Source: Acidithiobacillus sp. AMEEHan | GTDB lineage: Bacteria > Pseudomonadota > Gammaproteobacteria > Acidithiobacillales > Acidithiobacillaceae | Direction: 5' to 3' | DNA: 64,000 nucleotides | Assembly: GCF_030996345.1 (NCBI RefSeq) | Contig: NZ_CP118747.1 | Location: 62,001 to 126,000 of the forward strand | In this document: piece after piece, positions 5,717 through 20,216 of the stretch | Layout of the letters: every line of letters begins with the position of its first letter | Numbering within the stretch: position 1 is the first letter of the stretch | Made by a program: the position numbers and the translations under genes | Notes under the pieces: model-generated | What the model saw: only the letters and a program-made list of their open reading frames with translations | What the model was told of the DNA's origin: nothing | The model's database searches: none

Positions 5717-8501
5717 ATCTTCCCAAGACCGATTTCCCCATGCAGGGTAAACTGCCCCAGCGTGAACCTGAGGTGCTGGCAGGCTGGCAGGAGCTGGACC
5801 TGTATCAACGCCTGCTGCAAACTCGTGCCGACGCACCGAGCTTTGTCCTGCATGATGGCCCGCCCTATGCCAACGGCAAGATCCACATCGGGCACGCCGT
5901 CAACAAAGTACTCAAGGACATCATCAACAAGTCGCGGCTGGTCGAAGGCATGCGGGTTCCCTACGTGCCCGGTTGGGATTGCCACGGCCTGCCCATCGAG
6001 ATTCAGGTGGAGAAGACCCACGGGCGCCCCGGTGAGAAGCTGAGCGCCGCAGCCTTCCGTGCGGCCTGTCGTGCCTATGCGGCGGAGCAGATCGAAGGGC
6101 AGAAGGCGGACTTCATTCGCCTAGGCATCCTTGGGATTGGGAGCATCCCTATCGCACCATGGACTACGCCGCCGAGGCGGACATCCTGCGCGAACTGGGC
6201 AAACTTACCCTCAAGGGACAGGTGTATCGCGGCGCCAAGCCGGTGCACTGGTGTGTCGACTGCGGCAGCGCTTTGGCGGAGGCCGAAGTGGAATATCGCG
6301 ATCGCAGCGACCCCTCCATCGACGTCGGTTTTCTGGTAGAGGATCGCGCGGATCTGTGTCGGCGTTTGGGCATTCCGCCCTTCGGCGGCGAAGCGGAAGT
6401 CGTCATCTGGACCACGACCCCCTGGACCTTGCCCGCCAACCAGGCGGTCGCCGTGCATCCCGAGTACGACTACGTTCTCCTGCAGGCCGGTGCACGCATC
6501 TTGCTGCTGGCCGCCGAGCTGGCGGAGAGCGCCTTGGCCCGCTACGGACATCCGGATGCCCGGCGCCTCGCCACGACTCGCGGCCAGGCCTTGGAGGGAT
6601 TGCGTCTTCATCATCCTTTCCAGGCGCGAACCGTGCCTGTCATTCTTGGCGCGCACGTTACCCTCGACGCCGGCACCGGCTGTGTGCACACCGCGCCCGC
6701 CCACGGCGTGGACGATTATCTGGCCGCCCAGGATTATCATCTGCCCATCGACAGCCCGCTGCGGGGCAATGGCCATTATCGTGACGATCTCGGCGACGGC
6801 CTCGCGGGACTCTCGACTAGCGAGGCCAACCGCGCCATACCGGCTCTCTTGCACGAACGTGGACGCCTGCTACACCAGGAAAAGATCGAGCACAGCTATC
6901 CGCATTGCTGGCGCCACAAGACGCCTCTGCTCTTTCGCGCCACACCCCAATGGTTCATCAGTATGGAGCGCAACGGGCTACGCGAGCAGGCCCTGCAAGC
7001 GATCTCCACAACACGCTGGATCCCTGCCTGGGGCGAGGAACGAATTGCCGACATGGTGCGCAAACGCCCGGATTGGTGCATCTCGCGCCAGCGCGCCTGG
7101 GGCGTACCGGTAGCCCTCTACGCCTGCGCACAGTGCGGCGAGCCCCTGCGCGACGCCGAGGTCTTCCAGCGTATTGCCGCGGCCGTGGAGGCCGGTGGCG
7201 TTGATGCCTGGTTCAGCGGCACAGACCAGGATTTCCTCGGCGATGCCCCGCATCACTGTGCTGCCTGCGGGCACGAGCAGTTTCACAAGGTCAACGACAT
7301 CCTCGACGTCTGGTTCGACTCCGGCTCCACCCACGCCTTCGTCCTTGAACGACGCCCCGAACTGCACAGTCCCGCCGACCTCTACCTGGAGGGTGCGGAT
7401 CAGCATCGCGGCTGGTTTCAGTCGTCGTTACTAGAATCCGTGGCCAGCCGCGGGCGGGCCCCTTACCGGGCGGTGCTCACCCATGGCTTCACCGTCGATG
7501 GTGAAGGGCGGAAGATGAGCAAGTCCGTGGGCAATGTCATCGCCCCGCAGGAAATCATCGATCGCTATGGTGCCGACATCCTCCGCCTGTGGGTAGCCTC
7601 GGAGGATTATCGGGGTGAGATTCCGATTTCCGACAATATCCTGCAGCGCTTGGGCGAGAGCTACCGCCGCATGCGCAACACGGCCCGCTACATCCTTGGC
7701 AATATCCACGATTTCGATCCGGACGTCGACGCCTTGCCGGAATCCGAACTTCTGGAGATGGATCGCTGGATGTTGGGACGCTGCGCCCAGATACAGCAGG
7801 AAATCCGCAACGCCTACGAGCAGTTCCAGTTTCATCGCGTGGTGCAGGCCATACATAACTTTTGCTCCATCGACCTGGGTGGTCTCTATCTGGACGTGCT
7901 CAAGGATCGTCTATATACCACCCAGACCCAGTCACGGGCACGGCGTTCGGCACAAACCGTGCTGGCAAAGATGCTGGATGCCTTGCTGGCCTGGATGGCC
8001 CCCATCCTCAGCTTCACCGCTGAAGAAATTTGGCAACACCTGCCTCGGCCCAGCGCCGAAAGCGTGTTTTTTGCCTGCTATCCTGACCTTGGTGAAAGCC
8101 AGGACCCCGTCCTGGACGCGCGCTGGCAGCGCCTGCTCACTCTGCGCGAGGCCACGAATGCCGCTCTCGAAACGCTGCGACAGGAGAAGAAAATCGGCTC
8201 CGCCCTGGATGCCCAGATAACCCTCTGCGCCAACGCCGACTGGCAGACATTGCTGCAGCCGATGGCTGCAGAACTGCGCTTCCTATTGCTTTGCTCTGAT
8301 CTGCAACTGCGCGATCTCGCCGCCGACGCGAAAGAGGCCCTGCCGGGCCTGGAGATCAAGGTAACAGCTTACGACGCCCCCAAATGCCCGCGTTGCTGGC
8401 ACCGACGCACGGACATCGGCCAGCATCCCGAGCATCCAGAACTCTGTAGCCGCTGTGCGGAAAACGTCGCCGGCGCCGGTGAGACAAGGGAGTACTGCTG
8501 A
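5695..8501 (+). CDS. ileS: Isoleucyl-tRNA synthetase, interrupted by a one-base frameshift
   Basis: The two parts together give a full-length IleS of about 935 residues. The first part carries the N-terminus with the HIGH signature ([10 protein letters not shown]) and [11 protein letters not shown]. The second holds the editing domain, the KMSKS loop ([10 protein letters not shown]) and the C-terminal zinc ribbon (CPRCWHR, CSRCAEN). The frame breaks at 6133-6135: GGG where GGGG would read [18 protein letters not shown] straight through. The whole span is one base short of a multiple of three. IleS is essential, so a sequencing deletion is far more likely than a true mutation. The stop overlaps the lspA start (TGATG). 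Confidence 0.93.
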
Positions 8502-8959
8502 TGCTGCGCTATCTCTGGTTGAGTGTCCTTGTCATCCTCCTTGACCAGGGGGTGAAGCTCTGGCTCAGTCATATTTGGCGGATCGGGCAAGGTATCGTCG
8601 TCATCCCTGGCATTCTCAATCTCCGCCTGGTGCATAACACCGGCGCTGCCTTCAGCTTTCTCGCTGGCGCTGGCGGCTGGCAGCGTTGGCTGCTCATCGT
8701 CATTGCCGTGATTGTCGTTGTGGTGCTCGTCGCCATATTGCGACGCCTGAAACCCGGAGCCCATTGGACCGCCATCGCCCTTGCCCTGATCCTGGGCGGC
8801 GCCTTGGGCAATCTCATCGATCGCATCCGGCTGGGCTATGTGGTGGACTTCATCGGCGTGCACTGGGGGAACCTCTATTGGCCTTATTTCAACATTGCCG
8901 ATAGCGCCATCACCATTGGCGCGCTGATGCTCATTGTCGATGCGTTTCGGCGCCAATGA
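8501..8959 (+). CDS. lspA: Lipoprotein signal peptidase II
   Basis: 152 residues with four membrane segments, typical for LspA. The catalytic aspartates are visible as D116 in GYVVDFI and D134 in FNIADSAI; the conserved NTGAAFS motif lies near residue 47. The enzyme cleaves the signal peptide of diacylglyceryl-prolipoproteins in the inner membrane. It is translationally coupled to ileS through TGATG. The window encodes lipoprotein substrates, including the RND adaptor and the DUF3568 protein. Confidence 0.96.
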   Translation: MLRYLWLSVLVILLDQGVKLWLSHIWRIGQGIVVIPGILNLRLVHNTGAAFSFLAGAGGWQRWLLIVIAVIVVVVLVAILRRLKPGAHWTAIALALILGGALGNLIDRIRLGYVVDFIGVHWGNLYWPYFNIADSAITIGALMLIVDAFRRQ

Positions 8960-8962
8960 TGC

Positions 8963-8990
8963 CTTTTTGTCGTGCAAATACGACAAAAAG
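8963..8990. promoter_or_regulatory. Perfect 11-bp inverted repeat, candidate enhancer-binding site
   Basis: CTTTTTGTCGT at 8963-8973 is followed by a 6-bp spacer and its exact reverse complement ACGACAAAAAG at 8980-8990. The stem is weak, and the downstream side is not followed by a T-run, so an intrinsic terminator for lspA is unlikely. Its centre lies about 100 bp before the transcription start expected from the sigma-54 promoter at 9048, a normal distance for a sigma-54 activator site. The binding role is inferred. Confidence 0.6.
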
Positions 8991-9047
8991 ACCACAGCGC
9001 CCTTCCTGATAAAAAATAACCTATTGTTTTTTAATGAATAATAATAT

Positions 9048-9063
9048 TGGCCCGATACTTGCT
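9048..9063 (+). promoter_or_regulatory. Sigma-54 (RpoN) -24/-12 promoter
   Basis: TGGCCCGATACTTGCT matches the consensus TGGCACG-N4-TTGCW at every defined position except one (A to C). The GG at -24 and GC at -12 have the required spacing. Transcription would start near 9074, about 23 bp before the ATG of the 67-aa gene. The surrounding DNA is AT-rich and lies in a true intergenic gap. RpoN promoters need an activator, and the palindrome at 8963-8990 is well placed for one. Confidence 0.72.
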
Positions 9064-9096
9064 TAACCTTCTGCACACAGCAAAAGGGGCACAGCA

Positions 9097-9300
9097 ATGG
9101 ATAATCGGGCGACTTTACTAGCAGCACTTCGGCGGGTACGGCATTACCCAGCCTATCATTCCTTCATGGCCACCCAGGAACGCGAGCGCATCAAACGCGA
9201 CTTGCAAAAGCGGCTGCTGCGCCTGCGCCGCGGACACCGGTCGCAGGGCGGCGGCTTTGCCTTCTTGCGTAACGCCGTCCTGTCGCAAATCCTCTACTGA
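9097..9300 (+). CDS. Small basic protein of unknown function under a sigma-54 promoter
   Basis: 67 residues, strongly basic, with an amphipathic stretch rich in Arg and Lys (RERIKRDLQKRLLRLRRGHR) and a more hydrophobic C-terminus (GGFAFLRNAVLSQILY). There is no signal peptide and no recognised domain. GGGG(C) lies about 8 bp before the ATG as a plausible ribosome site. The sigma-54 promoter just upstream and the lack of any other gene in the transcript support a real, conditionally expressed gene. It ends three bases before the convergent thioredoxin-like gene. The function is unknown; nucleic-acid binding would fit the charge but is speculation. Confidence 0.6.
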   Translation: MDNRATLLAALRRVRHYPAYHSFMATQERERIKRDLQKRLLRLRRGHRSQGGGFAFLRNAVLSQILY

Positions 9301-9303
9301 ACC

Positions 9304-9870
9304 CTATTGCGGCTCATTACCGGGCCGCCATTTGATACTGCAGCCCATGCAGGGCTGCACCTTGCTTGGAGCGTCCGCACCAGCGAGCACAGCGCGTACC
9401 GCAGCATCGAGGTCCTTACCCGTGATGGCCTCTTCATTCTTGGGCCGCGCGGCGTCGAACTGGCCGTGGTAAAAAAGTTTTCCCGCCGCGTCAAACAAAA
9501 AAATATCCGGGGTGCAGGCGGCATGAAACGCCTTGGCAACCGACTGATCGGCATCGAAGAGATAGGGGAAATCATAGCCTGCCCGCGCCGCCTCGGCCGG
9601 CATCTTTTCCGGCGCATCGTCGGGATAGGTCTGCGGATCGTTACTGTTGATCGCCACCACGGCCAAGCCAGCGCGCTGCCAATCTTTGGCAAGCTCCGCC
9701 AGCTTATGGGCAATATGGATGACGTAGGGGCAATGATTGCAGATGAACAACACCAGCAAGGGCTTACCCTTGGCTGCGGCAGTCGACCAGCTGCCCTCTT
9801 TCCCGCCAAAAGGTAGAGTAAAATCTGGCAATGGGGTCCCCAGGGGTAAATCGAATCCAGTCATAGCCAT
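9304..9870 (-). CDS. Thioredoxin-family (AhpC/TSA-like redoxin) protein
   Basis: 188 residues with the redoxin N-terminus (GTPLPDFTLPFGGKEGSW) and a thioredoxin-type CXXC motif at C44/C47 (FICNHCPYV). The middle (VVAINSNDPQTYPDDAPEKM) and the DGQFD-like sequence HGQFDAARPKN resemble the widespread thioredoxin-family proteins annotated as thiol-specific antioxidant or resA-like. A further cysteine pair (QPCMGCSIKW) near the C-terminus is characteristic of this subgroup. No signal peptide is evident, so it is probably a cytoplasmic disulfide reductase or peroxidase. The partner is unknown. Confidence 0.85.
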   Translation of the reverse strand: MAMTGFDLPLGTPLPDFTLPFGGKEGSWSTAAAKGKPLLVLFICNHCPYVIHIAHKLAELAKDWQRAGLAVVAINSNDPQTYPDDAPEKMPAEAARAGYDFPYLFDADQSVAKAFHAACTPDIFLFDAAGKLFYHGQFDAARPKNEEAITGKDLDAAVRAVLAGADAPSKVQPCMGCSIKWRPGNEPQ

Positions 9871-18789: not shown

Positions 18790-20216
18790 TTGGTTTCTCC
18801 CGTCGTTGCAGCACCGGTCAGCGTCTGCATATCCATTTTGCCCAGGGCGAGCAGGAGCGCACCACGTTCAACGGCCTCCGCGTAGCGCGCCTGGACCAGC
18901 TCTGCGCGCGACTGATCGAGGGCCGCCTGGCCGCGCAAAAGGCCGGTCAAGGTTTCCACGCCGTTCTGGTAGCGTAACCGCACCAGACGTTGCGCCTCCT
19001 CACTCTGACGCACTGCCAACTCCCGGGTCTTGACGCGCTGCGCCGCGAGCTTCGTAGCCAGGAGGGCCTTCTGCAACTGCAGCCGTGTATCATCCTGGGC
19101 CTTCTGCAGGTTGGCCAATGCCACTTGCACCTTCGCCTGGGCGGCATCCATCTGCCCGGAGCGCGAAAAATCCAGCAAATTCCAAGAAATCTGCCCACCT
19201 ACGGTGTAGGAAGGCACCGCGTTGCCCAAGGTCGTACCGTTCCACTCCTGCTTGGCCATGGCGTTGACATGGGGCAAGTAGGCGGCACGGGCGACACCGA
19301 TACCCGCCTGAGCGGCCCGGACCTTTTCCTGCAAGGCGCGGATGCCTGGATTATTGGCAATGGCCTCTTGCTCCAGGGCATAGGTGTCACCAGCAGGCTG
19401 TGGTGGCAACACCGGGGCATCCACCTGTATCGGGGTAGAAATCGGCTCACCGATGAGCAACGCCAAATTGGCTCGCGCATTGCTGACATTGTCCTTGGCC
19501 TGCTGCACTGCCAGCACCGCTTCCTCCTGGTGCACTTGCGCCGACAGCAAGTCGCTTTTCACCACCACGCCCTGGTTCAGCAACTGCTGCGTGGTCTTGA
19601 CATAGTTGTCGGCCGCACGCAGCGCTTTTTCTGCAACCTCCTCACCGGCCTTGGCAGCAATCAGTCCGTCATAGGCCTGCAGCACGGTGAAGACGAGCTT
19701 CTGCCGGGCATAGCGATCTCCGGCCTGCGCCGCGCGCAGCATGGCCTCCGCTTCGCTGATGCCGCTGCGCACCGCGCCACCATTCCAGATGGGGATAGCG
19801 AGGGAGATCTCCGTGCCGAGATTGTGGTAACCGCCCGGATGATCGAGATTGTTGGGCGCCGTATAGAGAGACTGCGGGTCCGAAGGGTTGAACTGATTGG
19901 CACCAAAATCGTTGAAGGTAGCGACGCGTTGCGAGAGCTTCATACCGAAAACCGTCAGCGCGTTGTTCGACTGTGCCCCAGAAAAACTCGCTGTGACTTT
20001 CGGCAACAGATCGCCATTGGCAGAGCGCAACGCGCCCTTCGCCTCGGCCGCCTGCGCTTCGGCCAACAGGGCGTCGGGGTTACGCTTCTGGGCATCGTGC
20101 ACGCATTGGGCGAAATCCATGGCTTGGACTGCTGGCGCCGCAACAACGGCAAACAGGGCGGCCATGCTGGCAGCCCAGCAACGTCTGCGATTCCTGCAGC
20201 GGTACGTTTTCATCAT
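18786..20216 (-). CDS. TolC-like outer-membrane efflux protein
   Basis: 476 residues. A signal peptide ends near AVVAAPAVQA, then the two repeated OEP domains with long heptad-like helices (for example RAAQAGIGVARAAYLPHVNAMAKQ and AQRLVRLRYQNGVETLTGLL). A second Met codon directly follows the first, at 20213. It should form the outer-membrane exit duct for the adjacent RND pump. It begins 81 bp after the ArsR-type gene; that gap contains an imperfect palindrome. Confidence 0.93.
   Translation of the reverse strand: MMKTYRCRNRRRCWAASMAALFAVVAAPAVQAMDFAQCVHDAQKRNPDALLAEAQAAEAKGALRSANGDLLPKVTASFSGAQSNNALTVFGMKLSQRVATFNDFGANQFNPSDPQSLYTAPNNLDHPGGYHNLGTEISLAIPIWNGGAVRSGISEAEAMLRAAQAGDRYARQKLVFTVLQAYDGLIAAKAGEEVAEKALRAADNYVKTTQQLLNQGVVVKSDLLSAQVHQEEAVLAVQQAKDNVSNARANLALLIGEPISTPIQVDAPVLPPQPAGDTYALEQEAIANNPGIRALQEKVRAAQAGIGVARAAYLPHVNAMAKQEWNGTTLGNAVPSYTVGGQISWNLLDFSRSGQMDAAQAKVQVALANLQKAQDDTRLQLQKALLATKLAAQRVKTRELAVRQSEEAQRLVRLRYQNGVETLTGLLRGQAALDQSRAELVQARYAEAVERGALLLALGKMDMQTLTGAATTGETK

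Follow-up and report, generated by a model that had tools for sequence, protein, structure and literature searches.

The DNA evidence gives good support for a conserved sigma-54 unit of the GlrR type that drives an orphan small protein in the Acidithiobacillaceae. The unit lies in a 64,000-nt window, the whole stretch of DNA that we analysed (G000:C1:62001-126000), of a 2.63-Mb genome. Its activator is, by strong inference from motif and homology, one or the other of two GlrR paralogs, and the unit probably serves to turn on a small cytoplasmic protein devoted to envelope homeostasis. This regulatory design is already known; the 67-aa protein family, and its promoter as a GlrR-type target, appear to be undescribed in the literature that we searched.

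The gene (9097-9300, + strand, ATG start) was found once in each of 29 Acidithiobacillaceae genomes from four genera and in none of 28 outgroup genomes, in a search of 57 relatives. The ORF is therefore kept in close relatives (29/29), a point on which the earlier note had staked its proposal beforehand. A scan of one genome per species (84,980 species) returned 22 loci, and those with informative titles were Acidithiobacillus or Igneacidithiobacillus; the scan used short patterns, and a lack of matches elsewhere is thus not conclusive. When 369 class members were searched with a profile, the only matches came from the two sampled genomes of the family and from a weakly scoring outsider (G181, E 3.7e-4); we ascribe this last match to chance because just 28 residues aligned and no convincing promoter or site stood in front. 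The gene is thus specific to the family within our sampling. Its conserved upstream neighbour is lspA, encoding signal peptidase II (8501-8959, + strand; PF01252, E 1.1e-44), and an lspA motif was found upstream of 28 of the 29 orthologs. The downstream boundary of the unit is a convergent gene of the redoxin/AhpC-TSA family (9304-9870, - strand; PF00578, E 1.1e-18), and because downstream genes were mostly convergent in the seven relatives inspected as well, the small-protein gene appears to be monocistronic. The Acidithiobacillaceae are extreme acidophiles that are used in biomining, and these results define an orphan family of small proteins that no sampled member of this lineage lacks.

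The gene is preceded by a sigma-54 -24/-12 element, TTGGCCCGATACTTGCT (9047-9063, + strand; GG at 9049-9050 and GC at 9061-9062), that has one mismatch to the consensus YTGGCACGNNNNTTGCW, where 0.33 one-mismatch sites are expected per window. Two other such sites, at 19468 (TolC-family ORF, opposite strand) and 27346 (333-aa ORF), are inside coding sequence and probably arose by chance, which leaves 9047-9063 as the only one-mismatch site of the window in promoter position. The element is present at all 29 orthologous loci: GG-N10-GC with TTGC at -12 occurs in every ortholog, GGC and TTGC are invariant, and the GG stands 45-59 bp from the ATG. The locus thus has the -24 GG and -12 GC of a sigma-54-dependent promoter, with 10-bp spacing and TGGC/TTGC context, and rpoN is encoded in the genome (PF04552, E 4.1e-70). 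Transcription would be expected to start at ~9074 on the + strand, about 12 nt past the -12 GC, leaving a 5' leader of ~23 nt; the start predicted in the earlier note agrees with this promoter geometry.

Further upstream is a perfect 11-bp inverted repeat, CTTTTTGTCGT-N6-ACGACAAAAAG (8963-8990, unstranded). It is the sole perfect inverted repeat in the window with arms of at least 11 and a loop of at most 10, and 20 Markov-1 simulated windows held a mean of 0.1 such repeats per window. This palindrome, unique in the window, the RpoN-type element and the 67-aa ORF thus all lie where the earlier note had placed them. Conservation and a published consensus identify the core of the repeat as a putative upstream activating sequence of the GlrR/QseF type, TGTC-N10-GACA (TGTCGTGCAAATACGACA; 8968-8985, + strand). 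The exact core stands upstream of the small-protein gene in 26/29 family genomes, and a looser TGT-N12-ACR (ACA or ACG) in 28/29, with 80-83 bp between the site and the -24 GG. The exact palindrome is lacking in G004, G005 and G006, two of which keep the activator GlrR-1 described below, and the outlier in spacing is L005, where TGTCGCAAGATGCCAACA lies 71 bp from the GG, about one helical turn shorter. Across the other 28 genomes the distance from site to promoter is nearly fixed (sd 0.8), whereas the gap between the lspA stop and the site can be as short as 8 bp or as long as 284 bp (sd 74.5). The palindrome therefore moves with the promoter and not with lspA, and an upstream activating sequence is its best interpretation. 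A combined site-plus-promoter pattern matched in 26 of the 29 genomes, in 25 of them at the small-protein gene, and a reversed-pattern control gave two matches across all 29; at the small-protein gene G016 is the exception, since its GGGC -24 falls outside the pattern. Conservation of this kind (ORF and promoter 29/29, palindrome core 26/29) is far beyond chance, and it marks the promoter as apparently ancient and activator-dependent, as the earlier note had proposed for a small basic protein.

A search of the genome along the lines suggested by that note found the exact palindrome TTGTCG-N8-CGACAA only once, with shorter-core sites and sigma-54 promoters standing before other genes as well. 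This strict 20-bp palindrome was rejected as a marker of the regulon across the genome, because its family-wide count, taken alone, barely exceeds that of a reversed control. Separately, a sodB-like gene has TGTCGTCTGCAAACGACA (L083:2522-2539; G000:C1:1746021) ~30 bp in front of it with no sigma-54 promoter seen between them, possibly another use of a similar palindrome or a chance occurrence.

The consensus for QseF/GlrR is quoted as TGTCN10GACA (PMC8745638), and TGTN12ACA is given as its site in work on E. coli, where GlrR (QseF) controls envelope homeostasis (PMC6075780). Reading the E. coli glmY promoter, we found three sites of the TGTC-N10-GACA type, TGTCTGTAAATCACGACA, TGTCGCTTTCTGGCGACA and TGTCTCTTTTTAGCGACA. 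The small-protein gene has such a site (TGTC-N10-GACA, also fitting TGT-N12-ACA) upstream, and the genome encodes two GlrR-family activators with a matching DNA-binding domain, L060 (GlrR-1) and L069 (GlrR_2). Among at least 13 activator genes read in G000, a listing that the earlier note had called for, these two are the closest to E. coli GlrR, with 58% identity over 427 aa for L060 and 48% for L069. They alone among the 13 strongly share its C-terminal DNA-binding region (E 1e-20 and 2e-19, respectively; next best 2e-4). The best NCBIfam model for both is GlrR, at scores below the equivalog cut-off (626 bits for L060; cut-off 763), which makes them likely rather than certified orthologs of E. 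coli GlrR. Furthermore, the gene order at L069 is kinase, lipoprotein-like ORF, activator, like that of E. coli glrK-qseG-glrR, and beside L060 a kinase ORF runs on into lipoprotein-like sequence. In one such ORF (L087:5159-7336; G000:C1:711158-713335, minus strand), the reading frame of a GlrK-like kinase extends into the lipoprotein-like stretch LALSLSGCAEMPV, which would fit a fusion of the kinase to a QseG-like protein or a shortened kinase end in G000. At least one GlrR-type C-terminus was found in all 29 family genomes; GlrR-1 is present in 27 (missing from G004 and G027) and GlrR_2 in 28 (missing from G012), G012 and G027 being less complete assemblies. One pair of activator genes recurs, with identical scores and spacing, at either end of contig C1 (14729-17842 and 2550814-2553927), an offset of 2,536,085 that suggests an untrimmed circular overlap in the assembly.

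Together, these data make the small-protein locus a strong family-wide candidate for a GlrR target with a predicted binding site. The earlier note had seen a unit with no attachment to known metabolism. The unit can nevertheless be tied to a known, envelope-linked regulatory system, since the genome encodes GlrR-like activators and the palindrome fits the GlrR/QseF consensus. The note's interpretation of the sigma-54 unit, the upstream activating sequence and the kept ORF thus stands, but it had missed the link to GlrR. Sigma-54 in Acidithiobacillia was surveyed in 2025, with GlrR/GlrK and GlrR_2/QseE among the groups listed; passages of that survey's main text discuss targets for HupR, NtrC, NtrX, TspR and flagellar regulators and name none there for GlrR (PMC12194929).

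With at least 13 activator genes in G000, the unit could be sigma-54-dependent and yet have its palindrome bound by a different activator (TspR, NtrC, NtrX, PilR, HupR or an unassigned one), which we regard as unlikely. TspR invites the comparison, as its site, TGTCCCAAATGGGACA, is also of the form TGTC...GACA (PMC6335251). Its half-sites stand N8 apart (TGTC-N8-GACA), two bases closer than at the small-protein locus, where 26/29 genomes have N10, and we rejected TspR on this half-site spacing. Moreover, the sox cluster associated with TspR is described in the survey as found mainly in sulfur oxidisers and absent from most iron-sulfur oxidisers (PMC12194929), whereas the palindrome is family-wide. 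Among the activators compared, a set that leaves out NtrX, PilR and the unassigned ones, a published N10 consensus exists for GlrR only.

Could the palindrome instead be a transcription terminator of the ileS-lspA operon? In the window it begins 4 bp past the lspA stop, and its RNA folds well (-14 kcal/mol, z -3.84). However, no T run follows the palindrome, as one would follow the G+C-rich stem of an intrinsic terminator, and a terminator scan of the site was negative. In other genera, where the site lies up to 284 bp from lspA, the RNA folds no better than shuffled sequence, and TGTC/GACA and the promoter distance are kept where the stem is lost. We thus rejected the terminator, a very improbable reading of the palindrome, which may have a secondary terminator role in the genus of the window alone.

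The earlier note had left open whether the protein or its mRNA is the product, and here the evidence favours the protein and speaks against the mRNA. Although GlmY, the best-known target of GlrR in E. coli, is annotated there as a stand-alone ncRNA gene, it is highly improbable that the functional product is a GlmY-like or dual-function RNA with an incidental ORF, and we rejected this reading because the codons are under selection (pS 0.25-0.88 vs pN 0.01-0.21), 27 residues of the protein are invariant and the locus has no Rfam match. With pN/pS at 0.02-0.27, purifying selection on the codons is strong, which indicates a protein as the functional product. The 27 invariant positions of the ortholog alignment are all among the first 44 residues. 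The protein and its orthologs have a pI of 11.7-12.0 and a net charge of +10 to +14, no signal-like N-terminus or signal peptide was found, and the most strongly amphipathic stretch is residues 30-48. AlphaFold2 predicts a helical hairpin (helices 4-16 and 23-65) with moderate confidence (mean pLDDT 73.7). Searches of Pfam, NCBIfam and PDB sequences gave no significant match, and Foldseek with the predicted fold returned nothing below E 3 from the PDB and no informative relative. A cytoplasmic protein with a predicted helical hairpin is the best reading, and its binding partner may be RNA, an anionic membrane or an acidic protein.

Other candidate site-promoter pairs, found by pattern searches that give an incomplete regulon scan, appear to precede mainly envelope genes; names other than MdoG were assigned by eye, several of them on the basis of signal peptides and composition with no match in Pfam. 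Pairs stand before an outer-membrane-barrel-like gene in G000 and G005 (a further match in G007 is similar in sequence), a TolC-like gene in G000 (with CGGC instead of TGGC at -24), a small exported ORF upstream of a TolC-like gene in G007, and mdoG/opgG in G016 (PF04349, E 2.5e-162). For two MKKIVA-type exported proteins in G000, ~235 bp separate the TGTC-N10-GACA site from a sigma-54-like promoter. A pattern search in which the gap of the pair was lengthened to 70-100 bp gave no match. The MKKIVA genes are in tandem (L082:1174-2600; G000:C1:308673-310099), each with its own site and promoter and with near-identical leaders, apparently a duplicated regulatory unit. At L081:391-4364 (G000:C1:293390-297363), a TolC-like gene and an outer-membrane-barrel/proline-rich exported gene are divergent, and each is preceded by a GlrR-type site and a sigma-54-like promoter.

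We propose that a phosphorylated GlrR-family activator would bind the palindrome at 8968-8985 and loop to sigma-54 RNA polymerase waiting at 9047-9063. A short monocistronic mRNA beginning at ~9074 would then encode the strongly basic helical-hairpin protein, which would act in envelope homeostasis, probably through an acidic partner (RNA, anionic membrane or protein). As the small protein lacks a signal peptide and a known relative, this last role is a guess from the company it keeps; the candidate regulon points to the envelope, and so does what GlrR controls in E. coli (PMC6075780). A more speculative and rather unlikely reading makes the protein a counterpart of GlmY: the core GlrR output in Acidithiobacillaceae, a small regulator that would bind RNA or protein and, in extreme acid, tune the synthesis of envelope precursors or the control of envelope stress, taking over from the small-RNA branch of the Enterobacteriaceae.

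Among known systems, the TspR-sigma-54 promoter of sox-II in Acidithiobacillus caldus shares the family, sigma-54 and a TGTC...GACA palindrome with the small-protein locus, but it has TGTC-N8-GACA, drives a sulfur-oxidation operon and is lineage-restricted. QseF-activated rpoE P2 of E. coli (PMC6075780) places an envelope-homeostasis gene under GlrR and sigma-54, the control that we propose here, with a sigma factor as its target rather than an orphan small protein. The E. coli glmY system likewise combines TGTC-N10-GACA upstream sites, a -24/-12 promoter and a short product with a GlrR-family activator that has kinase and lipoprotein partner genes. It differs in having three sites where the small-protein gene has one, and in that its target lies beside the glrK-qseG-glrR operon, whereas the small-protein gene adjoins lspA. 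Finally, the glmY product is a small RNA and that of the Acidithiobacillaceae unit a conserved protein, which suggests an envelope role of GlrR beyond the Enterobacteriaceae in which a protein replaces the small RNA.
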